Origin: Thermoplasmata archaeon
GTDB taxonomy: Archaea > Thermoplasmatota > Thermoplasmata > UBA10834
Length of the DNA stretch: 43,608 bases
Direction of reading: 5' to 3'
NCBI GenBank assembly: GCA_020696395.1
Contig: JAEHCN010000003.1
Coordinates: 1-43,608, forward strand
This document shows, piece by piece, positions 15,913 to 40,095 of the stretch. Under the pieces are notes generated by a model. That model did no database searches. It saw only the letters and a list, made by a program, of their open reading frames with translations, and had not been told where the DNA came from. Every line of letters starts with the position of its first letter. Position 1 is the stretch's first letter. Made by a program: the position numbers and the translations under genes.

Positions 15913-16644
15913 GTGACGGCGATGGTCAGGCCTAATCCGAAGCTCGAGGAACTCAGGGGCAATATGCTCGGGACCGAATTCAAAAGCCGAAAGAACAGGG
16001 TGTTCAGGGCTACTGATCAAGGTATGACCGTTGTTGTGAAGGAGTTCTCGGACAGCGAGGTGGCGTCTAAGGAGTTCTCCGTGTTGATGAGGTGTTCTGC
16101 CGGGTCCCTCCCGGTACCTCGGCCATTGTCGACTCACACGCGCGCGATAGTCATGGAGAGCTTATCTGGCGAGACGGTGGCGGAAGCGCTCGATTCTGTA
16201 TGGCTGGGCACAGGACCGATCTCCGCCGACGAGCGGGCCAAGCTGCTCGATATCGTCGATGGCCTCGGCGAGTGGCTTGCGAGATACCATGCCCTGTTCG
16301 AGTTCAGGATGACGAGAGGCGATGCCATCATGAAGAACTTCCTCGTGAGCGACGGCAGGATCGTCGGCATCGACTTCGAGGAGGCATCGGAGGAGGATGT
16401 GATACGCGACCTCGGCGAGATGTGCTCGAGCATCCTCAGCATGCACCCAATGTTCACGGGCGACAAACTCGCTCTCTGCAGACGACTCTCCGAGCGGTAC
16501 TTCGAGCTCACGGGCGCAGAGAGGGCCGCAGACTTGAGCGCGGCGACTGCGAAAGCTCTCAGACACTACGCCAATTACAGGACCGACGGTGGGGAGTTGG
16601 TGGCAAGAGCCGCCGTGATCGAGAGCGACGGCCTGTTCTCATGA
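15913..16644 (+). CDS. Kinase-like (APH/ePK-like fold) protein
   Basis: VVVKEF (putative Lys), RGDAIMKNFLVSDGRIVGIDFEEAS (catalytic loop and D-[FL]-E like). Confidence 0.65.
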   Translation: MTAMVRPNPKLEELRGNMLGTEFKSRKNRVFRATDQGMTVVVKEFSDSEVASKEFSVLMRCSAGSLPVPRPLSTHTRAIVMESLSGETVAEALDSVWLGTGPISADERAKLLDIVDGLGEWLARYHALFEFRMTRGDAIMKNFLVSDGRIVGIDFEEASEEDVIRDLGEMCSSILSMHPMFTGDKLALCRRLSERYFELTGAERAADLSAATAKALRHYANYRTDGGELVARAAVIESDGLFS

Positions 16645-17433
16645 GAATAGTGGTAGGTCGACGGAGAGATGTCCGTCCAGCTGAAAGATTACCGTTGCCA
16701 ATGCGACCGTCGCGAGAACTGCCGCGCCGTCAGATAGGGACGGCTTGCGGGGATGCAGCAATGTGCGATCGGGATAGTTGCCGAACCCCCTGCCTGTCAT
16801 CGAGGCTGCCAACGAGTTGACCTTGAACATGGCCGAGAAGAACATCGGTAGAACGGTGTATCTGGCGGACCGTACTAGCCCTCTGACGCTTCTGTCGAGT
16901 CTCAGCCCTCTGATTGCCTGTGCCTCCCGGACTGAGTTCAGCTCAAACTGAAATATCGGCACGAACCTCATGGCCAACGCAGGAAGGTAGGCGTAGCGGT
17001 AGGGCATGCCCACAGACATCAACGATGACGACAGGTCAGAGGGCTTCGTGGTGGCAATCAGCATCCATGACATCATTATCAGGCAGAGGAACTTGCCCGC
17101 TATAGTGATTCCCGCCGAGACGCCGCCTGCGGTCAAGCTGAAGAACGCGACGGACCAGATCTCCTCTCCCGAGTGGTTGAAGATTATTTGGGCGATGAAT
17201 ATCGCGAAGGCGAACCCCACGACTCCCTTGGTGAAGATGCCCCTCGTCCGGAAGTGTTGCTTCGCTGCCAGCACGGAGATAATCAACGTTATCATAAGGA
17301 CGGGGGAGCTGATCAGTATCACCAGAACCGATGCAGTTACCAACATCAGAATCTTCGCGACGGGATTCAGACTTACGGCTCCTTCGCCCCTCAGAGTCTT
17401 CAAAGGCCTCCCTCCCTGGACAACATGTCCCAA
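16639..17433 (-). CDS. ECF transporter T component (EcfT/CbiQ/YkoC-like)
   Basis: Polytopic, EcfT coupling motifs REAQAIRGLRL and AASMTGRGFG. Confidence 0.9.
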   Translation of the reverse strand: MGHVVQGGRPLKTLRGEGAVSLNPVAKILMLVTASVLVILISSPVLMITLIISVLAAKQHFRTRGIFTKGVVGFAFAIFIAQIIFNHSGEEIWSVAFFSLTAGGVSAGITIAGKFLCLIMMSWMLIATTKPSDLSSSLMSVGMPYRYAYLPALAMRFVPIFQFELNSVREAQAIRGLRLDRSVRGLVRSARYTVLPMFFSAMFKVNSLAASMTGRGFGNYPDRTLLHPRKPSLSDGAAVLATVALATVIFQLDGHLSVDLPLFS

Positions 17434-18866
17434 TACCTACTAGGAACACTCTCGGTCGGCCCAGAGGCGACAACCCGCCCCTGGCTGAGGGCGATCAGGT
17501 CCGTGCAGAACCCCCTCGCAAGCTCATGATCGTGGGTCACGATTACGATGGTCTTTCCTTGGTTCTGGAGCTTCTCCAAGATGTTGACGACCCTGGTTGC
17601 GTTCCCCTTGTCTTGTCCTGCGAAGGGTTCGTCCAGCAAGATTATGCTGGGTTCATGAGACGAGCCTGATAATATGTTCACCCGCCTCTTCTGTCCGAAG
17701 CTGAGACAGTGTGGGTGGACATACCTTCTCAGGTCTTCGTGCTCCTCGAATTCCTCCACATACGATTCCGCGGTTGTGGGTGGTGCGTCGAAGTTGCGCG
17801 GAGCGAAGAGCATCTCACCCTCAACGGTGTTCTCGAAGATCTGATGGTTGGGGTTCTGGAAGATGAGTCCGACGTCCCTGCCGATTCTCCAAGCCTCTGC
17901 CCGTCTATCAGGGGTGACCGTGCTTCCGCAGACGACGATTCTCCCCTTCTGAATCTTCTGAAGCCCTGCTAGATGGCGTAGAACGGTCGTCTTCCCCGAA
18001 CCATTCTCTCCCATCAGAGCTACGACGGACCCGCCATTTATCTGGAATGATACATCGTCTAGTATTGTGAAACCATCGACTTCGTAGCTGAGTTTGTCGA
18101 CAGAGATGACGGCTAAAGCAGACGCGTCACCTGGGCGTCTGTACTCAGGCGGAGCGATAGCTTCTTCACGAATCCTCCCGAACTCCCCCTGCCCTCGAGC
18201 GCAGTTCACGGTCATCCTGCCGCCATCAAGAACCATAACCCTATCGACCAAGCCGATGAAATCCTTCAGGCGATGCTCTACGATGATCGCCGTCAGATCA
18301 GACTCATTCTTCATACCCTCTATCGCTCTGATCACCTGGCCGACCGACCTTCGATCTAAGCTCGCGGTCGGCTCATCGAGTATCAGCAGTCGAGGCTTGA
18401 CCGCGAGCATCGAAGCTATCGCGACCTTCTGCTTCTCACCTCCTGAAAGTGTCGACAGCATCCGGTCCCTTAGGTGGCTGGCTTTGACACTGGACAACGA
18501 CGAGTCAATGGCGCGCTCGATATCCGCGCGGCTGAACCTCAGGTTCTCAGGGCCGAAAGCCACCTCCTCCTCGACGGTCTCCGTGCAGAACTGGGTCTCA
18601 GGATCCTGTTGGACCATGCAGGCTAAGCCTGCAACCTCGCTGGGCTCCGTGTGGATAGTCCCATCGAGCCTGATCTCCCCGGAGATCTCCGCCGGGATCA
18701 TATCCGGAATGAATCCACAGACTGCCTGCATCGCCGTAGACTTGCCCGAGGCACTGTCGCCTGCTAGAAGGACGAACTCGCCCCGTCCGATACTGAGAGT
18801 TAGATTCGAGACCGCGGGTCTCGATCTTCCCCTATATCTGATGTTGAGATTCTTGATGTCCAGCAT
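17400..18866 (-). CDS. ECF transporter fused double ATPase (EcfA-EcfA', YkoD-like)
   Basis: Two Walker A (GDSASGKSTAMQAV, GENGSGKTTVLRHL), two signature motifs (LSGGEKQKVAIASML, LSFGQKRRVNIL). Confidence 0.95.
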   Translation of the reverse strand: MLDIKNLNIRYRGRSRPAVSNLTLSIGRGEFVLLAGDSASGKSTAMQAVCGFIPDMIPAEISGEIRLDGTIHTEPSEVAGLACMVQQDPETQFCTETVEEEVAFGPENLRFSRADIERAIDSSLSSVKASHLRDRMLSTLSGGEKQKVAIASMLAVKPRLLILDEPTASLDRRSVGQVIRAIEGMKNESDLTAIIVEHRLKDFIGLVDRVMVLDGGRMTVNCARGQGEFGRIREEAIAPPEYRRPGDASALAVISVDKLSYEVDGFTILDDVSFQINGGSVVALMGENGSGKTTVLRHLAGLQKIQKGRIVVCGSTVTPDRRAEAWRIGRDVGLIFQNPNHQIFENTVEGEMLFAPRNFDAPPTTAESYVEEFEEHEDLRRYVHPHCLSFGQKRRVNILSGSSHEPSIILLDEPFAGQDKGNATRVVNILEKLQNQGKTIVIVTHDHELARGFCTDLIALSQGRVVASGPTESVPSRYWDMLSREGGL

Positions 18867-20048
18867 CTATCTCACTTCGATAGCGACGACTTCTTCGACC
18901 CAGTAGCCTCCTTCATAAGCGTCAGCAACTAGCCGGAAGTAGCCCTCATCGTCGGTGATTATGATTCCATCTTCTTCCATGACATCCGCTAAATCGAATA
19001 CGGCGAAGTACCCGTCTCTTCCTCTGACTACGACCTCTGAAGCTCCATCCTGAGGGACGGCTTCCGCCAACAAGTCGCTCAAGAGAATCCCGGTGTAGTC
19101 TCTGGGGGCGACATGAGTGACTGTGCCGACCAGCTCGGCGTTCACCACCACTTCCCGGTCTTCGAAGTCGTCGTATCTGAAGTCGAAGGGGTTGTCGACA
19201 TCGCCCTCGACGCTGATTGCATCTCCTCCATGCAGGGTGAACACGAACATGAAGTAGTAGACGGCCCCGAGGATGAAGACCGTCAAGAAAGAGGCTACCG
19301 CCGCCAGGGACGCCCTTCTTCGCCTCTTCGCCTGTCTGTTCCTCTTCCACGCTTCATCTTCAGCTGAGCGTTGGTCGACGAACACCTCCTTATTCCCGCC
19401 GACCACGCCTGCCTCCTCCAGTGCCTCGAGCATCTCAACTGAGAGCCAGCCACCGAACACCATGCCGGAGGCGCAGGCGAGCATGCACAGCACGAGGATC
19501 AGGATCCACGGAACACCCGCAAAGAATAGTGTCTGGAACACAATCACGTTGACCGCCGCGGAGAGGCCGCCGGCAGCGGAATACGAAAAGTAGTCCCTTC
19601 GGTCCTTCGCCTTGTCGCTGAAGAGGACCATGTCAGCCACGACTCCCTGCATCAACGACACGACTACGATGACGACCCCGTGCGTGCTCCCAGTGAACAG
19701 CTCCACGACGCCTTTGAGCGCTCCTGTGACGGTTCCAGCGCCCTTCTTCTTCGTTATGCCTATCGCCAGGATGATCCAAAGGACATGAAGTCCGGCCATG
19801 AACTGTCCTGCGCCGAAGGGCACGCCGACGATGTGGTTCATGAGATTCCCAAGGTACCCTACGTAGGTCGAGAGGACACCGCCCAGAGCAGACAGTAGAG
19901 CGATGGTGATGAGATCCTTGGTCGAGAGCATCAGTCGTTTGGTCACGGGCACGGTATCACCTCCACCAAGGCGACGCATTTGACCCATCTCGCCCCGGCT
20001 GAAGGATACACGACGTATCCCTGTCCTTCGTAGGAGGTGGCCTCGCAA
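18867..20048 (-). CDS. ECF S component (YkoE-like) fused to a C-terminal SUOX/molybdopterin-domain-like module
   Basis: Polytopic N-half (KKKGAGTVTGALKGVVELFTGSTHGVVIVVVSLMQGVVADMVLF); C-half GDVDNPFDFRYDDF...YTGILLSDLLAEAVPQDGASEVVVRGRDGYFAVF. True start likely a GTG near 19946. Confidence 0.75.
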   Translation of the reverse strand: MRGHLLRRTGIRRVSFSRGEMGQMRRLGGGDTVPVTKRLMLSTKDLITIALLSALGGVLSTYVGYLGNLMNHIVGVPFGAGQFMAGLHVLWIILAIGITKKKGAGTVTGALKGVVELFTGSTHGVVIVVVSLMQGVVADMVLFSDKAKDRRDYFSYSAAGGLSAAVNVIVFQTLFFAGVPWILILVLCMLACASGMVFGGWLSVEMLEALEEAGVVGGNKEVFVDQRSAEDEAWKRNRQAKRRRRASLAAVASFLTVFILGAVYYFMFVFTLHGGDAISVEGDVDNPFDFRYDDFEDREVVVNAELVGTVTHVAPRDYTGILLSDLLAEAVPQDGASEVVVRGRDGYFAVFDLADVMEEDGIIITDDEGYFRLVADAYEGGYWVEEVVAIEVR

Positions 20049-21439
20049 TCAGGGTTGCTGTACTCCCCATCAGGGGCAAGCATGACAAGCTTGGGCCCAT
20101 CCCCCCATTCTGGCACCAGCTCTGATTCATAGCTCAGCGCCACCACCATCTCCCCTTGGAGCTGAAGCCATGCTTCGTTCGGGTAGACGTTCAGGTAACC
20201 GAATTCCTGGAGGTAGCCGTCTGAGGAAGTGACGCGTAGCACATCCCCCTCAATGATCCCTCCGACCAGCTCGACCAGGTTCGCAACCGAGACCCCCGAG
20301 TAGTCACCCGCTCCTCCGATGTTGTCGTAGAGGTTCTCGAACGAGGAATATCCTTCTGTAGTCGACATCGCGAACATCTCGTCATAGGACAAGTCCAAGC
20401 GCGATCCCTCTCTTCCGACGAGAGTCACGAGGGATAGATTCGAAGCATCGATTGCGGCCTCGACCTTCTCAAAGACGAGGTTGTCAGAACCGACCACGGT
20501 CACGTTCACGAAGTGGTGTTCGCCGTCGACAAGAGTTGCCCCCGCTCCTCCAGTGATGATGAAATCCGTATCACCGATGACTGTGTGGTTGAATGCGTGT
20601 ATGTGCCCAGTGAAGACCGCCTCGATGTCATCCGTTTCGATGAATTCGAGCATTCGGTCGCACGAATCCGGATATAGCGTATGATTATCACCGAACGGGT
20701 CGAAGCACGGCGCGTGGGTCACGATGACGTTCCTGGTTGCACCGCTGAACTCCTCTCTCATCCATGATATCTGTTCCTCGGTGACATTGAGGTCGGACGA
20801 GTCAACAATTACGAACCGTATGCCCCCGAAGTCGAAGCCGTATTGAGTCGGGCCGAACCTCGTCTCGTACTCGGTTATGCCATCGTTCTTCGCGTCGTGG
20901 TTGCCCGGCGTGGTGTAGACCGGGACGGGGGAACTGCATAGCACTTCCTGGACTGCTGCGAACTCGCTCGGCATTCCCGAGGGGGTCAGGTCCCCGCACA
21001 GTATAGCAAACTCGCATTCTCCGAGCGCTGAGAGCATCGACACGAGAATCTCATTCCGTCCGTGGCTGTCTCCGAGGACAGCGAACGTGAGGCTATCCTT
21101 CGCCGTCGGCCTGATGCATATGTCGTCTGAGCTGCCAGTTGAACGGAACGATATCGAAGTGTTGTCCGGGAACTCGTATTCGTCGACCCCTTCAACGGAG
21201 GACCCCGCGACGCAGTTGCGGAGTTCCACATCTCCTTCGAAGCCGTTCAAACGGAGTGATACCTCCGGCTTGTAGCACCAAATCTCCACCGCATCATCAA
21301 ACTGCGCTCTGACGATGCCTCCATCGACTACGATATCTGAACCTGAGGTGAGGATGAGCCCTGATTTGTATGCAACATGCAAGCTAGCAGCGATTACCAG
21401 CGTACATACCGCTAAAGCCGCCGCCCGCTTCCTGTTCAT
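19943..21439 (-). CDS. Exported calcineurin-like metallophosphoesterase with C-terminal SUOX-like module
   Basis: GDSHG, GDLTPSG, GNHD, VTHAP, GHIHAFNH motifs after an N-terminal TM; C-terminal YSGVSVANLVELVGGIIEGDVLRVTSSDGYLQEF. Confidence 0.85.
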   Translation of the reverse strand: MNRKRAAALAVCTLVIAASLHVAYKSGLILTSGSDIVVDGGIVRAQFDDAVEIWCYKPEVSLRLNGFEGDVELRNCVAGSSVEGVDEYEFPDNTSISFRSTGSSDDICIRPTAKDSLTFAVLGDSHGRNEILVSMLSALGECEFAILCGDLTPSGMPSEFAAVQEVLCSSPVPVYTTPGNHDAKNDGITEYETRFGPTQYGFDFGGIRFVIVDSSDLNVTEEQISWMREEFSGATRNVIVTHAPCFDPFGDNHTLYPDSCDRMLEFIETDDIEAVFTGHIHAFNHTVIGDTDFIITGGAGATLVDGEHHFVNVTVVGSDNLVFEKVEAAIDASNLSLVTLVGREGSRLDLSYDEMFAMSTTEGYSSFENLYDNIGGAGDYSGVSVANLVELVGGIIEGDVLRVTSSDGYLQEFGYLNVYPNEAWLQLQGEMVVALSYESELVPEWGDGPKLVMLAPDGEYSNPDCEATSYEGQGYVVYPSAGARWVKCVALVEVIPCP

Positions 21440-21443
21440 CTCC

Positions 21444-22964
21444 TCACTCTGGAAGGTCTACGAGGTCTACCCTGACCACACCTTTGACATTCGTCGATCC
21501 CGGCAAGTCCTCCCCCGTAAGCATTAGGGGGTATTCCTCTCCTGTGAAGTACTCTCCGTCGAAAGTCAGCGCCAGTATCAAGGAATCATTGTATTCCACA
21601 TCTTCCACAGAAAGGGTCTTGCTGTAACCATCCGACCCGGTGACCTTCACACCGTAGCCAAGGTCTGCGAGCGTGTCGTTGAACAGCCAGTGAGATGAGT
21701 CCGCTCCGTCGACGAGTCCGACCAGGACCCACAGTGGGATGCCCGCGTAGCTGTGCTCTTCCAGGTCTTCGGTGTAGTTGTAGTAACTGACATGCAGCCC
21801 CTCGTCGCAGTTGAACAACGCGACGAAATCCCACTCGGTGAATGTCTCCGTCGTAAGGCCTGCGAGTGTGAGCTCCCATGCCGGGGTTTCTACATATCCC
21901 TCGATGGCTATCCGGACGATGTTCCTAACCTTCTGGGAGCCTGCAAGGTCATCGCCGACAATCCTCAGTGGCCAGTCATCCTCTGCAAGCACCTCCCCAT
22001 CCAGCTTGTAGGCGACGATGATGCTGTCGTTCCTGGCTACCTGCGCCGCATCAAAGGTGGCCGAGTACCCGTCTGAGGCGGTGACGTTGACCGTGTATCC
22101 AGCCTCTGCGAGCGCGTCGTTGAACATGTAATGACCATCAGGTGCATCCGCTTCGTCCACTGCTGAAAGCAGAACCCATAGTGGGATTCCCTCGTAGTAG
22201 TGATCGTCATCATCGTCCGTGTAGTTGTAGTAGGTCGTGTGGTAGTAGCACGTGGCCAAGGACTCGAAAGTCTGACTGTTCATGTCCATCGTAGTGACTC
22301 CCTCGAGCTCGAGGGTCCAGTCGTGGACGAACGGGGCCACGTTCAGCTCCTTGACCATCTTTGCCCAGAAGTGTCCGTCCGTGACGGGCTTCTCCTCATC
22401 GTCCACTACCACTATCCTCAGACTGTCGTAGGCAAGGCGCTCCCCATCCTCCTCGTAAGCAAGCATCATCGTGAGGTCATCCGGTCCAAGGAGCTCGCCG
22501 TCGAGGTTGTAGGTAGGGAAGGTCCCGTTCTCGACCTGTCCTGAGTTGTAGGTCATCTCGTACCCGTCCCAAGCGACGGTGTTCAGGCTGTAGTTGTCGC
22601 CGTCGTAGACAAGGTCGACCAAATCACTAACTGGTATCCCCGTGAAGTTGAGAGGGCCGACGATGGTCCCAGTAGATTTCATGAAGTACCCGGAACCTTC
22701 GTAGGATTCCATGTCCGATAGTTCTGAGACGGTCAGATTCACACTTCCGCCGAACCCGGAGATGATGATTGCAGCGTCACCATCTGGATTCGAATCGTCC
22801 GTCCCTTGGGTCGCCAAGTATCCCAGAGGTACTCCTACCAGGAGTGCGGCAATCGCCACAAGGGCGATTAGCTTCCGACCGCCCATTCTCTTCGGCACTT
22901 TCGGTGAGGGTGCTTCCATTCCCTTCACAGGCCCGTTGTCGGTATCTCGATTCTCCTCCGCCAT
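21444..22964 (-). CDS. Membrane-anchored extracellular protein with three SUOX-like repeats
   Basis: Start MAEENRD at 22964 preferred (ORF track opens at 23225); TM anchor KLIALVAIAALLVGVPLGYLA; three repeats each with G(T/I)P-L-VL/DL and DGY motifs. Confidence 0.8.
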   Translation of the reverse strand: MAEENRDTDNGPVKGMEAPSPKVPKRMGGRKLIALVAIAALLVGVPLGYLATQGTDDSNPDGDAAIIISGFGGSVNLTVSELSDMESYEGSGYFMKSTGTIVGPLNFTGIPVSDLVDLVYDGDNYSLNTVAWDGYEMTYNSGQVENGTFPTYNLDGELLGPDDLTMMLAYEEDGERLAYDSLRIVVVDDEEKPVTDGHFWAKMVKELNVAPFVHDWTLELEGVTTMDMNSQTFESLATCYYHTTYYNYTDDDDDHYYEGIPLWVLLSAVDEADAPDGHYMFNDALAEAGYTVNVTASDGYSATFDAAQVARNDSIIVAYKLDGEVLAEDDWPLRIVGDDLAGSQKVRNIVRIAIEGYVETPAWELTLAGLTTETFTEWDFVALFNCDEGLHVSYYNYTEDLEEHSYAGIPLWVLVGLVDGADSSHWLFNDTLADLGYGVKVTGSDGYSKTLSVEDVEYNDSLILALTFDGEYFTGEEYPLMLTGEDLPGSTNVKGVVRVDLVDLPE

Positions 22965-22997: not shown

Positions 22998-23149
22998 TCG
23001 CGGATAGAATCGCGGTATAAATAGCTGTCGTGATTCAGAGGCGCCTTGACCTGGATTGGGAGCTCTAGGCATCCCTGAGAGGGCAACCTGCCGTCGGTGT
23101 GGCTTCGCCCAATGGATTGAACACATCGCGGAACCAGGTCTCCAGAATC

Positions 23150-32044: not shown

Positions 32045-34306
32045 TCATCTCCTCCTGAGGCGTGGGTTCACGACCTCATCGAACGCCCTTCCTATCAGGT
32101 AGAACGCGAGTGACAGCAGCGTGATCGCGATCCCCGGGGGCAGGAGCCACCAGGGCGCGTCGAGCGAGTGTCCGCTGATCTGCAGGTACTGCAGCATCAT
32201 TCCCCATGTTATCGCATTGGGGTCTCCGAACCCGAGGAAGGCCAGGATGGCCTCGGTCACGATCGCCCCGCTGATCATGAATGTCATGTATAGGAACGCG
32301 AAGGGGAGCACGTTCGGGCCGATGTGCCTGAAGATGAGCCGCATATCCGATGCTCCAGCGACTATGGCGGCGTCGACGAACGCCCTTTTGCGCGTGGAGA
32401 GCGTCACCGACCTGATCACCCTGGCGATGCCCGCCCAGGATAGGATGGCGAAAATTATGATGATATTGAACAGCGAGGGCCCGAAGGCAGCTGCGAAAAG
32501 TAGCATTATGACAAGGTACGGCAGGCTCAGCATCACATCTGTCGCCCTCATGAGGAGCTCCCCGACGAAGCCCGAGTAGAACCCTGCGACAAGCCCAACG
32601 ATCGTCCCTATCACGACCGAGAAGAACGCTGCGGTGACGCCAACCAACAGCTCCGCCCGAGTGCCGAACATCACCTGGGTCAGGATGTCGTGTCCCTCGT
32701 AGTCCGTGCCAAGCGGATAGTAGTTGCCGGACGGATAAGTGCCCGGTGGTAGCGGGGCAATGTTCACTCCAGTGAGCGTCTCAACGAAGAGCGAGTTGTC
32801 CTCCGTTATCACTCCGAAGTAATTGCCGGTTTTCGAGTCTTCGATGTAGATGTTCCCAAGGAACGCCACAGGCGTGACAGCCCCACCTCCAGGAGCGCTG
32901 AAGGTGGCATTGATCTTCATCTCGTTCGTGATTAGATATATCGTCCCCTTGTCGGTGCTGAAAACGAATCGATACTGGCCACTGACATACTGTGGCGGGC
33001 TGTTGAGGTATCCGTCCACCGTCGAGAAGAGCGTGTTGTTGCTCCCGACCCTGCCTGTCTTCGGGTCGAGGCCAACAACGAGCCCTCTATCGCCCGTCCT
33101 GCCCACCATGACGAGATGCTCCGGCGAGGAATGGAGCGAGGATATATCGAAATCCCGTATGCCTGGAAGTATCGGTTTGCTCGACCAAGTCACGTTGCCC
33201 GTGAGTCTGTCATAGGCAACTACGCGTCCATCTGTCGTCGCAACGAAAACGGATTCCTTGCCGATCGCGGTGGTGGGCTGGTACGGGTACTGGAAGATGA
33301 TCATGTCATCGCCAACCACTGGTTCAAACGCCTCGTCTTCGACGGTGTAGTTACTCTCCCATCTGAGGGCGTCTATGGTTACGTTGAGGATCTTTCCCGT
33401 GAGCAGGGATTTCGTGAGGTTGAGGTCATAAGTCCTAAGCCCAACATCGGTGGGTACGATGAGCATGCTCCCGTTGGCGAAGTCTCCATCGACCACCAAC
33501 GGGTTTCCCACGATGGTCGCGTTGGCTATCGTGAGGTTGCTCGTGAAGGTGACTCCGTCCAAACCGGGTTCGGTGATGTCCGGCGGTCTCTTGTTGATCA
33601 TCCAGACGTTGTGGTCATCCGCGAATGCCATGGCTAGCCTGCCAACCTGATATAGCGGCGAGAATCCGTTCCATAGATTGGACGTGTACAGTGGAACGAA
33701 CGGTATCTCGTGCTCTCGGATGTACAGGAAATCATAGCTGTATTCGTACAATGTGGCTGATTGGTTGTCTCCTTCCTGGTTTGAACGGAGTACGAAGAAG
33801 AAAGTCTTGTAGAAGTGGGTGTAGTCCAGGTAGTCCGCTTCGGCGGGCAACTGTACGGTCGACGGTTCCTCGATATCTATGCCGAGCTCGCCCGTCTCCT
33901 CGCCACTGCCCGTCCTCGCAACTGGGTATACGATTACCGTACCTCCCTCTGAGTAGACCATCAGCCTCTCCATAGGCCTGTCCTTGAGGGTAGACGTCAG
34001 GCCAAGAATCTCCGTCCAGTTGCTATCAGAGGGTAGGTCTCGGGTTGCGTAGTCTGCTATGAAAGTGTCGATTGCGGGCGCCTTGAAATCCGCATTATAG
34101 GGGGCGGTCCAGGGTGCCGTGATGGCGATGACCAGGAATCCGAACACGATGCCCATGCCGGTCACACCCGTCAGCGACCTTCGATAGATCTTCCATGTGT
34201 TCCTCAGAGCTATCGCGATCCGTCTGGCTGTCTTTATGCCGGCCTCCTGGAGCTCCCTCGTATCGGGTCTTTTCGTCTGCTCTTTCGCCTCTTCTTCCTC
34301 TTTCAC
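32045..34306 (-). CDS. Oligopeptide/dipeptide ABC transporter permease (DppC/OppC-like) with large extracellular PQQ/beta-propeller-like insertion
   Basis: TM1 near N-terminus; canonical YPLGTDYEGHDILTQVMFGTRAELLVGV and permease core after residue ~520. Confidence 0.92.
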   Translation of the reverse strand: MKEEEEAKEQTKRPDTRELQEAGIKTARRIAIALRNTWKIYRRSLTGVTGMGIVFGFLVIAITAPWTAPYNADFKAPAIDTFIADYATRDLPSDSNWTEILGLTSTLKDRPMERLMVYSEGGTVIVYPVARTGSGEETGELGIDIEEPSTVQLPAEADYLDYTHFYKTFFFVLRSNQEGDNQSATLYEYSYDFLYIREHEIPFVPLYTSNLWNGFSPLYQVGRLAMAFADDHNVWMINKRPPDITEPGLDGVTFTSNLTIANATIVGNPLVVDGDFANGSMLIVPTDVGLRTYDLNLTKSLLTGKILNVTIDALRWESNYTVEDEAFEPVVGDDMIIFQYPYQPTTAIGKESVFVATTDGRVVAYDRLTGNVTWSSKPILPGIRDFDISSLHSSPEHLVMVGRTGDRGLVVGLDPKTGRVGSNNTLFSTVDGYLNSPPQYVSGQYRFVFSTDKGTIYLITNEMKINATFSAPGGGAVTPVAFLGNIYIEDSKTGNYFGVITEDNSLFVETLTGVNIAPLPPGTYPSGNYYPLGTDYEGHDILTQVMFGTRAELLVGVTAAFFSVVIGTIVGLVAGFYSGFVGELLMRATDVMLSLPYLVIMLLFAAAFGPSLFNIIIIFAILSWAGIARVIRSVTLSTRKRAFVDAAIVAGASDMRLIFRHIGPNVLPFAFLYMTFMISGAIVTEAILAFLGFGDPNAITWGMMLQYLQISGHSLDAPWWLLPPGIAITLLSLAFYLIGRAFDEVVNPRLRRR

Positions 34307-35449: not shown

Positions 35450-38400
35450 TTATTCCGTCTTCTCTTCTCCCAGCAGCTCCGGTTCAAGGACGGGCTCGTC
35501 CTCGGGAGGTTCCACCAGTCCCGTCTCTGGCACTTTCTTCGGCCTATACTTCATGACGAACACCAGAGCCACCACAGCGATGATCCATCCGATTGCCGCA
35601 AGACCCCAGGCAAGGATGCTCCCTCCCTCGGCGGCCGCCTCGAAGGTGAAGTCGACCTCCATCTCGCTCGAGACTCCCAGAGAGTCCGTCGCGGAGATTA
35701 CGATCGTGTGCTCTCCCTCCTCAAGGTCCTCAAGGGTCTCGGATATGGCGGCAGCCACCGATCCCGCGGTCACGGTCAAGTCTATGTCCGTCCCGTTGTC
35801 CAAACTCATGGTGGCCGACGCGATGCCGTTATTGTCGTAGATTGACGCCGTGAGAGTCGCATTTCTGCCCAAGACCTCTCCGTCGGCTGCCGGAGACGTG
35901 ATTACGATTTCCGGACCCAAGTTCTTCACGGCGATCATCATCTTCGCCGTTGAACCTTCAGGTGCTCCACCAGTCGCCAGCGAGATTGCGACCAAAGCCG
36001 CAGGCGCATCCTCTATGTTCGATGTGTCCACGACCATCGTAGCCACGCCATCGGCGTCCGTCAGGACCATTGGGGTCACTACTGTGCCCGCGCCCGTCGC
36101 TATGGAGACGGGCAGATCGGGGTACGGCTCGCCCATATCGTCAACGACGGTCGCCGTGACGTGCAGCTGATCCCCTATCATGTAGACATCGAGCATCGGC
36201 TCCAGTTCGAAGAAGACGGTGTCCCTCATGGTCTCTATGACGAGCTGCGTCTGGCTGAAGATGTTCATCGCACCGTCGACTTCTGCAATCACGTACATGT
36301 CTGGGTTGGTCGCATATGTCACTTCCGTGAACTCGCCGGTGTCCGGGTTCTCAGCTGCCGCGATGATCTCGAAGACGACCTTTCCAGTGGCGTCCGTCGT
36401 GCTATCTTCCGTGGTCACGCCGTAGTCGCCCGCCGGGTACAAGGACACCTCAGCGCCCTCTACGAGGGCGTTGTCCTCGTCGTACGCGGTCACCGTCACG
36501 TCTGTCACCTCGAACTCAGCGTCCTTGGCCGCAAGCACTGGTTTGTCGATCTCGTAGACTACAGTCGTGACCGCAGTGGCCCGGCTGTATCCGTAGTTGC
36601 TCGAGATTGTCGTCAGGCCAGTGATAACATGGTTGCCCGTGTCGGTGCTGAAGCTCCCCGTCGAGTTGGGGAGCAGAAACAGGTCCATCACGAGGTCCAA
36701 GTGCGCCATGTCCACGCCCTCCACGGTTATGGAGTACATCCCGTCGACCACTTCGATCCCGGGGGTGTCCACATAGACCCCCCAATCTGGGACGTCCGCA
36801 AACTCTGGCGCGGCGTACGAACCCGCGGACACGATGTTCTGTCCATCGGCCTCGGTGAGTATGTTGAGACCCGCGTAGTCCCAGAGAGTGTTCCACTGCG
36901 ATTCGTTCCAGTCGGTCAACTGTCCGTAGGCCGTGCCCGCGACCACAACGCTCGAGTTCACATTGGCTGGGTTGCCCTCGCTGTCGAACACATAGAACGT
37001 CACGTCGATCGTTCCGAGCGGGTCGACGAACTTCGGAGTGGCGTACTGAACATAGCCGCCGTACATGTCCGTCAGTCCACCAGCGTCAGAGTACGTTAGC
37101 GTGACAGCGTCCATGATCGAGTTGGCCACAGAGCCGTTGCCGATCGTGACCCTCAGAGCGGCGTCGACGCCGATGTCGTCTATCTCGACATCGAAGCTCG
37201 CAAGTCCTGACCCGTCCGTCGTCACTTTCGTCTCTGCGCCGACAACCATGGTGTCATCACTGTACGTGATATCTAGCATCTCGCTAGCCAACGGGCTGCC
37301 CGCAGCGTCCATTGCCATGACCTCTATCGTGGTCGTGGGCGATGCGCTGCTCAGAGCGGTGGTCGTGACCGATTCGATCGTGGTCATTCGCCAGACTGGC
37401 GCTGCGTCGTTATATATCACCATCGAGCTCGCCGCAAGGTTCGACAACGTGTACTTCGGGTGCGACACTGACGCAGCCAACGTCACCAACAGATGCTGGT
37501 TCTGCGTAGCCTCGTCAGGGGCTGAGTATGTCATCGTTCCCGCACCGTTCGCGTCCGTGAACACTGTGCCTGATTCCGGCGAAATCGAGCCATAGCCAAG
37601 CAGGTACGGGTCGATCGTCACATTCGCTCCCTCGACAGGGTCTCCGTTGACGTCTGTTACCCTGACGGATATCGCGACGTCCTCAGCAGCGACTAGGGCC
37701 GTCTTCGCCGGTATCACCTCGACGCCGAGGCCTCCGAGCGATGTCACTATGAGGCTCGACGAGTCGTTGGCCTCCAGCGTGCCGCTGGTAACGTTGACGT
37801 TAACGGCCGAAATGCCGGCCGCTTCGCCCATCACGGAGAACTCAAAGACACCGTTCGCGTCGGTCGTTCCGTCCGTGGGAGACGCCGCCGCTCCGCTGGT
37901 CACGTCCACCTCGACCGCTGCCCCAACGACAGGGTTGCCGAGATTGTCGATGGCCTTGACGTATCCGTCAACGCTCTGGTCGCACTTCACCTTCTCAGCG
38001 ATGGTGAGACCTGCGCTCAGGCTGGTGGTGACTGCACCCCCGCCCGTTGCGCTGCCCGCCCCTGAATACTCAAGCGTGCACAGATTGAACGGGTTCATCA
38101 GCGTGCCGTCGAATTGGGTCCAGTTGGTCCAAGTCTTGCTGTGCGCCTCGACGTTCACCCTGTAGTACAATACGTTGCACGGAACGGCGTCCGCGATGAT
38201 ATCCTGGCCAATCTTCACGTAGTTGATCTGCTCCGCCACATCGAAGGTCGCCCTCGCAAGGGTCTCATTCTCGGTGAACATGTCAACTAGCTCCATGGTC
38301 CTCTCGTCGGCGAGCGTGCTCACGCCGCCCAGGTCCTCGTAGAGTGGGTTCGAGTTAGTGTCGGACCAGAATGCCCAGTTGTTGCTAGCCGCGGCCGCTC

Positions 38401-39832
38401 CGTATATGTCGTAGAGGACGCTGACGCACTCGGTGTAGCCCGAGAAGTTCCACCCGATTATGAGCATCTGATAATCGAATGCGACCAGCTTCGCAACCAA
38501 CGTGTTGAAGTCTATCGGTTTCGCCTCGACGTTGATGCCCGCCTCTCTCATGTTTGTGGCGATCATCTGTCCCGCTCTGATCCTGATGGGGTCGTAGTCG
38601 GCAGGCGGAGTCAACAGAGTTATCTTCTCCATGAGGGTGCCGTCGGGCAAATCTCTCCAGCCGTCCTCGTTGACGTCCACATACCCGGCGTCGTCCAGGA
38701 GAGCCTTCGCCGCATCGACGTCGAACGCGTAAGTCGTCACGGTGGGGTTGTGCCACTCATCGAAGAACGGTGAGACCGCCGCCGATCCCACCTTGCCGAA
38801 GCCGCCCATGTACACATCGACGAGCTGTTCCTTGTCAATCAGGTGAGACACGGCCTTTCTGAACGAGATGTTGTTCATCGGCTCCTTCTTCATGTTGAAC
38901 GCCAGGTAGAAGTAGCCAGCATCAGACATGTATTCCAGTTCGATGTTCGGATCGCTCTGGAGTCCAGGCACTCGCCCGGACGTAACCGCCCATGCGATGT
39001 AGTCCACATCTCCGCCCTGCAGGGCAAGTATCGCGGTGTCAATGCTCGTGTATATCTTGTAGAACACAGTGTCGACTACCTTCGGGAAGACCGGCATGCC
39101 TGCGGGGGTCGTGTAGTCGACGCCCCAGTAGTCGTCGAACTTCTTCATCACCCTGTACGAGTTCGTCACGCCATCTGCGTAGTACCAGGGGCCCGTTCCT
39201 ATCGCCATTTCCCTTTCGCTCTCCTCGACTATGACTCGGTCTTCGTCGTCGACATAGTTCTCCCAGATGTGCTTGGGCATGATTGGTATCCCAAGGGTGC
39301 TCGAGAAGAACTGACCGTAGGGCTTTGCCATAACCATCTGGACGTGGTATTCGGAGATCACCTTGATGCCAGCGTTGAGTTCTGCCGCACTCACGACGTT
39401 GTCCTCGTCAGCATCGAAGGCGGGTATGAGGTTGCTGTCATAGGTCGTACCTTGTCTGCACATCAGGTACGAGAAGAGGACATCGTCCGCGTGCATCTCC
39501 TCTCCATCGTGGAACAGGACGCCTTCTCTCAGATATATGTCGACCGTGTCCACTTCGTCGAATTCCCAGCTCTCAGCCAGGAGCGGAATCGGTCTAAGAT
39601 CATAGTCAGCTGTTGACAGTCCCTCATATCCCATGCCTATCACGTTGTATTTCCAGACGCTGTTGGACCCAAGGTTGTAGTAGTTGAAGTCCGGCATGTC
39701 CAGCTGCATGGCGATATACAGTACATCCTCATCTGCGGCCGCTGCGCTAGCGGACTTCGCGGGCAGGGCCGCAAAGGCCGATAGAATCATCAACGACATC
39801 ACCAATCCGGCTAACACTGCTTTGCTTTTCAT
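35450..39832 (-). CDS. Family 5 extracellular solute-binding protein with C-terminal Ig-like repeats and TM anchor
   Basis: Signal peptide MKSKAVLAGLVMSLMILSAFAALPAKSASA; SBP_bac_5 features (GPWYYADGVTNSYRVMKKFDDYWG; FRKAVSHLIDKEQLVD); about seven Ig-like modules; C-terminal TM AWGLAAIGWIIAVVALVFVMKYRPKK. ORF track extends to 39889. Confidence 0.93.
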   Translation of the reverse strand: MKSKAVLAGLVMSLMILSAFAALPAKSASAAAADEDVLYIAMQLDMPDFNYYNLGSNSVWKYNVIGMGYEGLSTADYDLRPIPLLAESWEFDEVDTVDIYLREGVLFHDGEEMHADDVLFSYLMCRQGTTYDSNLIPAFDADEDNVVSAAELNAGIKVISEYHVQMVMAKPYGQFFSSTLGIPIMPKHIWENYVDDEDRVIVEESEREMAIGTGPWYYADGVTNSYRVMKKFDDYWGVDYTTPAGMPVFPKVVDTVFYKIYTSIDTAILALQGGDVDYIAWAVTSGRVPGLQSDPNIELEYMSDAGYFYLAFNMKKEPMNNISFRKAVSHLIDKEQLVDVYMGGFGKVGSAAVSPFFDEWHNPTVTTYAFDVDAAKALLDDAGYVDVNEDGWRDLPDGTLMEKITLLTPPADYDPIRIRAGQMIATNMREAGINVEAKPIDFNTLVAKLVAFDYQMLIIGWNFSGYTECVSVLYDIYGAAAASNNWAFWSDTNSNPLYEDLGGVSTLADERTMELVDMFTENETLARATFDVAEQINYVKIGQDIIADAVPCNVLYYRVNVEAHSKTWTNWTQFDGTLMNPFNLCTLEYSGAGSATGGGAVTTSLSAGLTIAEKVKCDQSVDGYVKAIDNLGNPVVGAAVEVDVTSGAAASPTDGTTDANGVFEFSVMGEAAGISAVNVNVTSGTLEANDSSSLIVTSLGGLGVEVIPAKTALVAAEDVAISVRVTDVNGDPVEGANVTIDPYLLGYGSISPESGTVFTDANGAGTMTYSAPDEATQNQHLLVTLAASVSHPKYTLSNLAASSMVIYNDAAPVWRMTTIESVTTTALSSASPTTTIEVMAMDAAGSPLASEMLDITYSDDTMVVGAETKVTTDGSGLASFDVEIDDIGVDAALRVTIGNGSVANSIMDAVTLTYSDAGGLTDMYGGYVQYATPKFVDPLGTIDVTFYVFDSEGNPANVNSSVVVAGTAYGQLTDWNESQWNTLWDYAGLNILTEADGQNIVSAGSYAAPEFADVPDWGVYVDTPGIEVVDGMYSITVEGVDMAHLDLVMDLFLLPNSTGSFSTDTGNHVITGLTTISSNYGYSRATAVTTVVYEIDKPVLAAKDAEFEVTDVTVTAYDEDNALVEGAEVSLYPAGDYGVTTEDSTTDATGKVVFEIIAAAENPDTGEFTEVTYATNPDMYVIAEVDGAMNIFSQTQLVIETMRDTVFFELEPMLDVYMIGDQLHVTATVVDDMGEPYPDLPVSIATGAGTVVTPMVLTDADGVATMVVDTSNIEDAPAALVAISLATGGAPEGSTAKMMIAVKNLGPEIVITSPAADGEVLGRNATLTASIYDNNGIASATMSLDNGTDIDLTVTAGSVAAAISETLEDLEEGEHTIVISATDSLGVSSEMEVDFTFEAAAEGGSILAWGLAAIGWIIAVVALVFVMKYRPKKVPETGLVEPPEDEPVLEPELLGEEKTE

Positions 39833-40095
39833 GTTACACTCATCCTCCGTGAAGTCCCTCCCCCATAGTAGAGGGATCAGCTTCTGCAATCGTCTTCATG
39901 TATATATGAGGTTTCCCCATGATGAGTCGCGGTATCTGGGTATATATATGAAATCGCATTCCGACGAGGGGATAGGGTTAACGCTGAAAAGACATCATCA
40001 GAGCGCAGATTCTGACACGCCTTCACGCCCTCGAACTCTAGCCCTCGTTCTAAGCATGCGAAGGGAGCCGTCCGTCGGAGCCGGCCCGCACATAA

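Follow-up and report, generated by a model that had tools for sequence, protein, structure and literature searches.

According to Warnhoff and co-workers, cells that need the molybdenum cofactor (Moco) are presumed to synthesize it, and how it passes membranes is an open question. Caenorhabditis elegans lives on external Moco taken from its diet (PMC9793310), but there the consumer is an animal, the donor is protein-bound, and no transporter has been identified. In the open-access literature that we searched, with subscription papers and preprints outside its scope, we found no characterized prokaryotic importer of Moco, the tungsten cofactor (Tuco), or molybdopterin; one genome report speaks of a "molybdopterin import cluster" but gives no evidence for it (PMC4511579). 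The described systems, WtpABC, TupABC, or ModABC with MoaABCDE-MoeA, import the bare oxyanion and build the cofactor. Here we describe a gene cluster in a 43,608-nucleotide stretch (contig JAEHCN010000003.1, hereafter the window) of the 1.7-Mb genome of a Thermoplasmata archaeon (assembly GCA_020696395.1). The cluster serves the same enzymes and, in Clostridia, shares riboswitch and neighborhood with those systems, but in archaeal carriers it seems to take their place. Archaeal carriers have the cofactor's enzymes but have lost the genes for its synthesis, and in bacteria the system stands under a cofactor riboswitch; we therefore read the cluster, with a probability of roughly 0.8, as an energy-coupling factor (ECF)-type importer of a molybdopterin-based cofactor, either Moco or, most likely in these organisms, Tuco.

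The cluster consists of five minus-strand genes, overlapping or at most 4 bases apart, transcribed from position 22964 to 16639 in the order triple-module surface protein, metallophosphoesterase, S component, fused double ATPase, and EcfT (Table 1). Two ECF-type ATPases, fused here, and an EcfT/CbiQ protein within one operon are the parts of a group I ECF transporter. Open reading frames and Pfam matches agree with the original prediction, made from the sequence of the window, on all five genes and their order, but that prediction overlooked a kinase gene convergent on EcfT. Its expectation of a co-conserved neighborhood also held: five-gene order and convergent kinase are kept across 18 relative loci (L035-L052), the only departures being at contig ends and in L038 and L049, where the phosphoesterase is degraded or not intact. 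This is far more conservation than expected by chance. The closest named relative, also called "Thermoplasmata archaeon" (L053), has 95% identity in the S component. At 40%-60% identity, the fusion of S component and module occurs in Asgard archaea (Heimdall-, Hermod-, Loki-, and Thorarchaeota), Clostridia, and Acetothermia, surrounded by phosphoesterase, extra modules, ATPase, and EcfT. Thermovorax subterraneus DSM 21563 and Anoxynatronum buryatiense Su22 are carriers available in culture.

The bacterial loci link the system to molybdenum and tungsten. A Moco/Tuco riboswitch (RF01055) was present at the cluster in 16 out of 23 Clostridia loci, each with at least 2.5 kb of upstream DNA, and in 11 Clostridia loci it directly leads the first gene, whether S component, phosphoesterase, or triple-module protein. 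No riboswitches were found in the window or in the eight archaeal loci searched. All three RF01055 alignments that we read (one in L128, two in L098) lacked helix P3, and the P3-less form has been assigned to Tuco (Regulski 2008, PMC2408646). The same study lists as exceptions two such RNAs of S. wolfei that precede "sulphite oxidase" genes, which are probably members of this system. In some Clostridia loci the operon has a molybdate permease gene beside it, along with genes for ModA, a TupA relative, and the MOT1 molybdate transporter, as seen in loci of the Pelotomaculum type. Also in or beside the molybdenum and tungsten cluster of Pelotomaculum-type Clostridia is a gene for TrmO, a tRNA methyltransferase, whose C-terminus here is FmdE-like (L099 1184-1987, L079, L098, and L121).

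Because of the ModA, TupA-relative, and MOT1 neighbors, we tested the carriers for cofactor biosynthesis. Across 300 genomes of the Thermoplasmata class, each at least 80% complete, all 18 carriers encoded AFOR_N, the domain of tungstopterin aldehyde oxidoreductases (AORs), and none encoded MoaC, which was found in 177 of the 282 non-carriers. The 95 AOR-positive genomes comprised 69 with MoaC, 18 with the system, eight with neither, and none with both (Fisher 1.4e-13, uncorrected for relatedness). In the first set tested, MoaC was found in 0 of the 18 class carriers versus six of the eight non-carriers of the window's own order; in the remaining two, G012 and G014, a MoeA gene lies at the edge of a contig. 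Within this order, MoeA was absent from all 14 carriers and present in all eight non-carriers, and tungstate- and molybdate-binding proteins of the WtpA/ModA type (PF13531) were found in 0 out of 10 carriers versus eight out of eight non-carriers, several of the latter being weak matches. MoaB/MogA-type domains were absent from most carriers. One non-carrier (G020) has MoaE, MoaC, MoaB, MoeA, WtpA, and WtpB in a single cluster, and carriers have no such cluster. The system and MoaC were exchanged more than once: within genus g37 (G108 and G127 versus G122, G132, and G142), within genus g3 (G017 versus G008, G010, G016, and G018), between g4 and g5, and in f32.

The Asgard sample gave the same pattern. 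All of its 12 genomes carry the system and contain AORs, with 2-12 AFOR_N genes each, and MoaC, MoeA, and MoaE were found in none. Carriers in the Thermoplasmata class and in Asgard archaea thus have cofactor-dependent enzymes but appear not to make the cofactor. We also found none of these three proteins in G087/L105, G101/L125, and G102/L128, which combine a riboswitch-led operon with AOR genes. The position of the system in Clostridia, beside molybdate and tungstate importers and under the Moco/Tuco riboswitch, together with the existence of group I ECF importers of metal ions, could instead suggest that the system imports bare molybdate or tungstate. We consider such an importer highly improbable and rejected it, as oxyanion import cannot stand in for the lost MoaC and MoaE, leaves the phosphatase, the kinase, and the pterin-fold receptors without a role, and does not suit a YkoE-type pocket, which is organic.

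Among described transporters, the system most resembles YkoEDC, the group I ECF thiamine importer of Bacillus subtilis, in the fold and family of the S component, the S-AA'-T gene order, the fused double ATPase, and the dedicated T component. The original prediction had recognized an ECF importer with this gene order, and matches to CbiQ, ABC_tran (twice), and ABC_cobalt bear it out. The S component matched YkoE (5edl) at 6e-16 by sequence and with E 1e-6 and TM 0.77 by fold. Its model (pLDDT 85) has six YkoE-like helices, an Arg/Lys-rich stretch, a seventh helix, and then a sulfite oxidase (SUOX)-fold module. Since the Arg/Lys-rich stretch lies before helix 7, the module should be extracellular. 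This seventh helix and module are extra compared with YkoEDC, and the system adds separate surface receptors, a phosphoesterase, and a kinase.

The pocket of the S component also differs from that of YkoE, in which Trp49, Tyr46, Glu77, Gln95, and Asp131 contact thiamine, with Glu77 and Gln95 holding the aminopyrimidine ring (PMC5037267). Across 38 S-component homologues, Trp49, which stacks on thiamine, is replaced by His in all 38, Tyr46 by Ala or Ser, and Asp131 by Gln in 37, so that only Glu77 (38 out of 38) and Gln95 (32 out of 38) are kept from the five. We count this pocket in favor of a pterin cofactor, as the aminopyrimidine ring also occurs in pterins and the residues particular to thiamine are gone. 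The original prediction had proposed thiamine or hydroxymethylpyrimidine (HMP) as the substrate, in which case the phosphatase would act on thiamine monophosphate or thiamine pyrophosphate (TPP). In favor of that proposal are the closeness of the S component to YkoE, the S-AA'-T order, a phosphatase and kinase that would suit thiamine phosphates, and a weak match of the kinase to ThiK (E 0.018). However, beyond the three replaced residues, no operon in the loci searched was led by a TPP riboswitch, and thiamine-gene context was likewise lacking; the only two loci with TPP riboswitches, both from Acetothermia, have them on the other strand, where they precede different genes. A Moco/Tuco riboswitch and molybdenum and tungsten genes are present instead, and thiamine import would leave the loss of MoaC and MoeA unexplained. 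Thiamine or HMP as the substrate is thus very improbable, and we rejected it on pocket residues and riboswitches. Judged from sequence, the system is by its parts a group I ECF transporter and, by the tests made, not a thiamine importer. The accompanying proposal of extracellular capture and dephosphorylation before ECF import survives as a model.

The SUOX-fold modules that distinguish the system were predicted as five copies on three outward-facing proteins, which is supported by PF00174 (Oxidored_molyb) matches, a module hidden Markov model (HMM), profile comparison, and structure models. The iterated HMM placed three copies in the triple-module protein, one in the phosphoesterase, and one in the S component; it was trained on those same copies and fixes their boundaries only. 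Profile-profile comparison linked the three module types (E 5e-8, 1.5e-4, and 9e-10). PF00174 matched the S component and the triple-module protein, but the tail of the phosphoesterase in the window had no Pfam match of its own; six out of 10 orthologous tails did match PF00174, the best at 4.7e-6. Giant surface proteins, approximately 1400-1500 amino acids in the stretch read, contain five to seven SUOX-fold modules (L079 12820-17008, L098, L099, L083 1102-5616, L109, and L130), and several lie directly behind their own Moco/Tuco riboswitch.

In the HMM alignment, the column of the molybdenum-ligating Cys holds Lys, Asn, Asn, Asn, and Gly across the five modules of the window. The reference for this column, L002 (G000:C67:5293-5826), is a SUOX homologue that keeps the Cys; it is a separate exported protein of the same genome and may either bind Moco as a genuine Moco protein or be another receptor. 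In module 2, Cys239, Tyr241, and His242 (506-amino-acid numbering) are invariant, and this Cys is not at the molybdenum-ligand position. The Cys in modules 2 and 3 at first looked like a candidate molybdenum ligand, but we make no such claim, as it aligns eight columns before the canonical SUOX Cys and precedes the strand. The best Foldseek match of the AlphaFold model of the triple-module protein (pLDDT 79.6) was PruR (7kom; E 9e-7, TM 0.73 on target), followed by sulfite oxidases. PruR (PDB 7kom, 7kos, and 7rkb) is an exported SUOX-fold pterin receptor that lacks the Cys (PMC13259868). Because the modules also lack this Cys and have PruR as their best match, the models suggest that all five are best read as pterin receptors rather than enzymes. 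PruR differs in being single and soluble and in signaling to DcpA, whereas the modules here are tandem, membrane-anchored, or fused to transporter or phosphatase. It has Trp where they carry Asn, Lys, or Gly, and their ligand is probably larger.

Two other interpretations of the modules are less compatible with these observations. They could be genuine sulfite oxidase-like enzymes, as their PF00174 matches and the listing of the S. wolfei genes behind Moco RNAs as putative sulphite oxidases (Regulski 2008, PMC2408646) would suggest. They share domain and fold with sulfite oxidase, sulfite dehydrogenase, and MsrP (YedY) but lack the molybdenum-ligating Cys and the partner haem or dimer domains, are not placed as an enzyme would be, and occur as tandem repeats and as fusions to an S component and a phosphatase, which makes an enzymatic role highly unlikely. 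Alternatively, the modules could act like PruR in an importer of another pterin, such as a tetrahydropterin or folate-type compound. The fold match is consistent with this, and PruR binds monapterin-like pterins in a pocket said not to fit Moco (PMC13259868). We find this alternative improbable, as riboswitch and genome co-occurrence single out Moco/Tuco.

The phosphoesterase and kinase are predicted to have complete active sites, one outside and the other inside the cell, an arrangement that we count in favor of cofactor import. The phosphoesterase resembles GpdQ-type phosphohydrolases (2zo9, 1.3e-9) and purple acid phosphatases. Its metal-site motifs GD, GNH, H, and GHxH are kept in all 17 sequences compared, although most of them have Gln in place of the His in GDxH. 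In the kinase candidate, the catalytic Lys, Asp, and Asn and the Asp of DFE are invariant (17 out of 17 sequences). Among loci with enough flanking DNA, the kinase is adjacent to the operon in 12 out of 12 Thermoplasmata and 10 out of 13 Asgard loci. Its places and orientations differ, which we interpret as a functional link rather than inherited order.

From these patterns we infer binding, dephosphorylation, transport, and re-phosphorylation of the cofactor. The PruR-like surface modules would bind the pterin cofactor, its fragments, or forms released from proteins, and the exported metallophosphoesterase would take off the terminal phosphate, split a dinucleotide form, or both. The YkoE-like S component, aided by its own module, would then move the dephosphorylated cofactor inward with EcfAA'T, and the cytoplasmic APH-like kinase would restore the phosphate for use in AORs. 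Such a system could let AOR-dependent anaerobes live without cofactor synthesis, and in Clostridia may act as a riboswitch-controlled supplement to biosynthesis.

The state of the cargo is less certain than its class. That MoeA and binding proteins of the WtpA/ModA type have been lost favors the finished cofactor, and we lean slightly towards the metal entering together with the pterin. MoaE is kept in carriers G019, G025, and G047, which lack MoaC and MoeA, and this favors a precursor or earlier intermediate. The system would then have the same salvage role with a metal-free cargo, namely molybdopterin, dephospho-molybdopterin, or cyclic pyranopterin monophosphate, and an unrecognized enzyme would insert the metal. 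S components usually take small organic molecules, and the Moco/Tuco riboswitch fits such a cargo equally. We nevertheless regard it as rather unlikely, given that MoeA, and mostly MoaB/MogA, were lost along with MoaC, that the binding proteins were also lost in the window's own family, and that free molybdopterin is unstable.

Several observations besides the retained MoaE weigh against import of a molybdopterin-based cofactor. Exclusivity is not absolute, as one Thermoplasmata carrier (G062/L064) has MoaC, MoeA, and MoaE, and MoaC is present in 19 out of 25 Clostridia carriers; G062 and most Clostridia carriers thus do not combine cofactor-dependent enzymes with an inability to make the cofactor. 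Eight AOR genomes have neither route and, apart from G012 and G014 with their contig-edge MoeA, six of them are unexplained. We note that the co-occurrence tests count related genomes as separate tips, which are not independent. The kinase is rare in Clostridia loci (three out of 19), and the phosphoesterase is missing from some. Additionally, the modules might bind a smaller pterin, as the PruR pocket is reportedly too small for Moco (PMC13259868). The six AOR-positive genomes without MoaC or the system (G021, G050, G058, G111, G118, and G222) may be incomplete assemblies or may use a further route.

Table 1. Features of the putative cofactor-import locus, in window coordinates.
Feature	Coordinates	Strand	Evidence
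APH/RIO/Bud32-like small-molecule-kinase candidate, convergent on EcfT	15913..16644	+	PF01636 4e-8
EcfT, CbiQ family	16639..17433	-	PF02361 3e-27
Fused EcfA-EcfA' ATPase, 488 aa	17400..18866	-	ABC_tran x2; ECF_ATPase_1 TIGR04520 322 bits (cut-off 315)
ECF S component, YkoE/ABC_cobalt kind: six helices, seventh helix, and SUOX-fold module predicted to be extracellular	18867..~19979	-	PF09819 3.1e-19
SUOX-fold module of S component	18873..19217	-	PF00174 26.2 bits (cut-off 24); module HMM; profile-profile
Exported metallophosphoesterase, 498 aa, GpdQ/purple-acid-phosphatase superfamily	19943..21439	-	PF00149 7.6e-14; signal/anchor by inspection
C-terminal SUOX-fold module of phosphoesterase	19958..20428	-	Module HMM; profile-profile; Pfam matches of orthologous tails
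Triple-module surface protein, 506 aa, N-terminal membrane anchor and three SUOX-fold/PruR-like modules	21444..22964	-	PF00174 47.1 bits; model; Foldseek
Module 3 of triple-module protein	21465..21872	-	Module HMM boundaries, alignment
Module 2 of triple-module protein	21903..22313	-	Module HMM boundaries, alignment
Module 1 of triple-module protein; K at Mo-ligand Cys position	22338..22763	-	Module HMM boundaries, alignment
Possible archaeal TATA box CTATTTATA, ~55 bases before triple-module protein ATG	23016..23024	-	Read directly; putative

Upstream of the operon, an aldo-keto reductase gene ends 185 bases from the first ATG. Two further minus-strand genes were noted elsewhere in the window. 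The first (35450-39889) encodes a 1479-amino-acid protein in which Ig-like and macroglobulin-type repeats come after an SBP_bac_5 (oligopeptide-binding) domain, and adjoins Opp permease and ATPase genes. The second (32045-34306) encodes a 753-amino-acid OppC-type permease of unusual architecture, in which a BamB/PQQ-like stretch separates the N-terminal helix from the permease domain.

Overall, the genes seem to encode the first microbial machinery known to acquire molybdenum or tungsten cofactor in ready-made form. We see about even odds for a fuller claim, in which prokaryotes would here have their first dedicated system for salvaging the cofactor complete with its metal, and numerous archaea of the Asgard group and Thermoplasmatota would be Moco/Tuco auxotrophs using cofactor released by their neighbors. 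The system is a testable transporter candidate and offers an explanation for the sulfite oxidase genes behind Tuco-type riboswitches that were puzzling to Regulski et al. 2008. Entire archaeal lineages, the tested Asgard genomes among them, seem to supply their tungsten enzymes with cofactor from outside. The cofactor would then be a public good on which members of anaerobic communities come to depend. Such dependence may be one reason why these archaea are hard to isolate, and the system itself points to a supplement for culture media.

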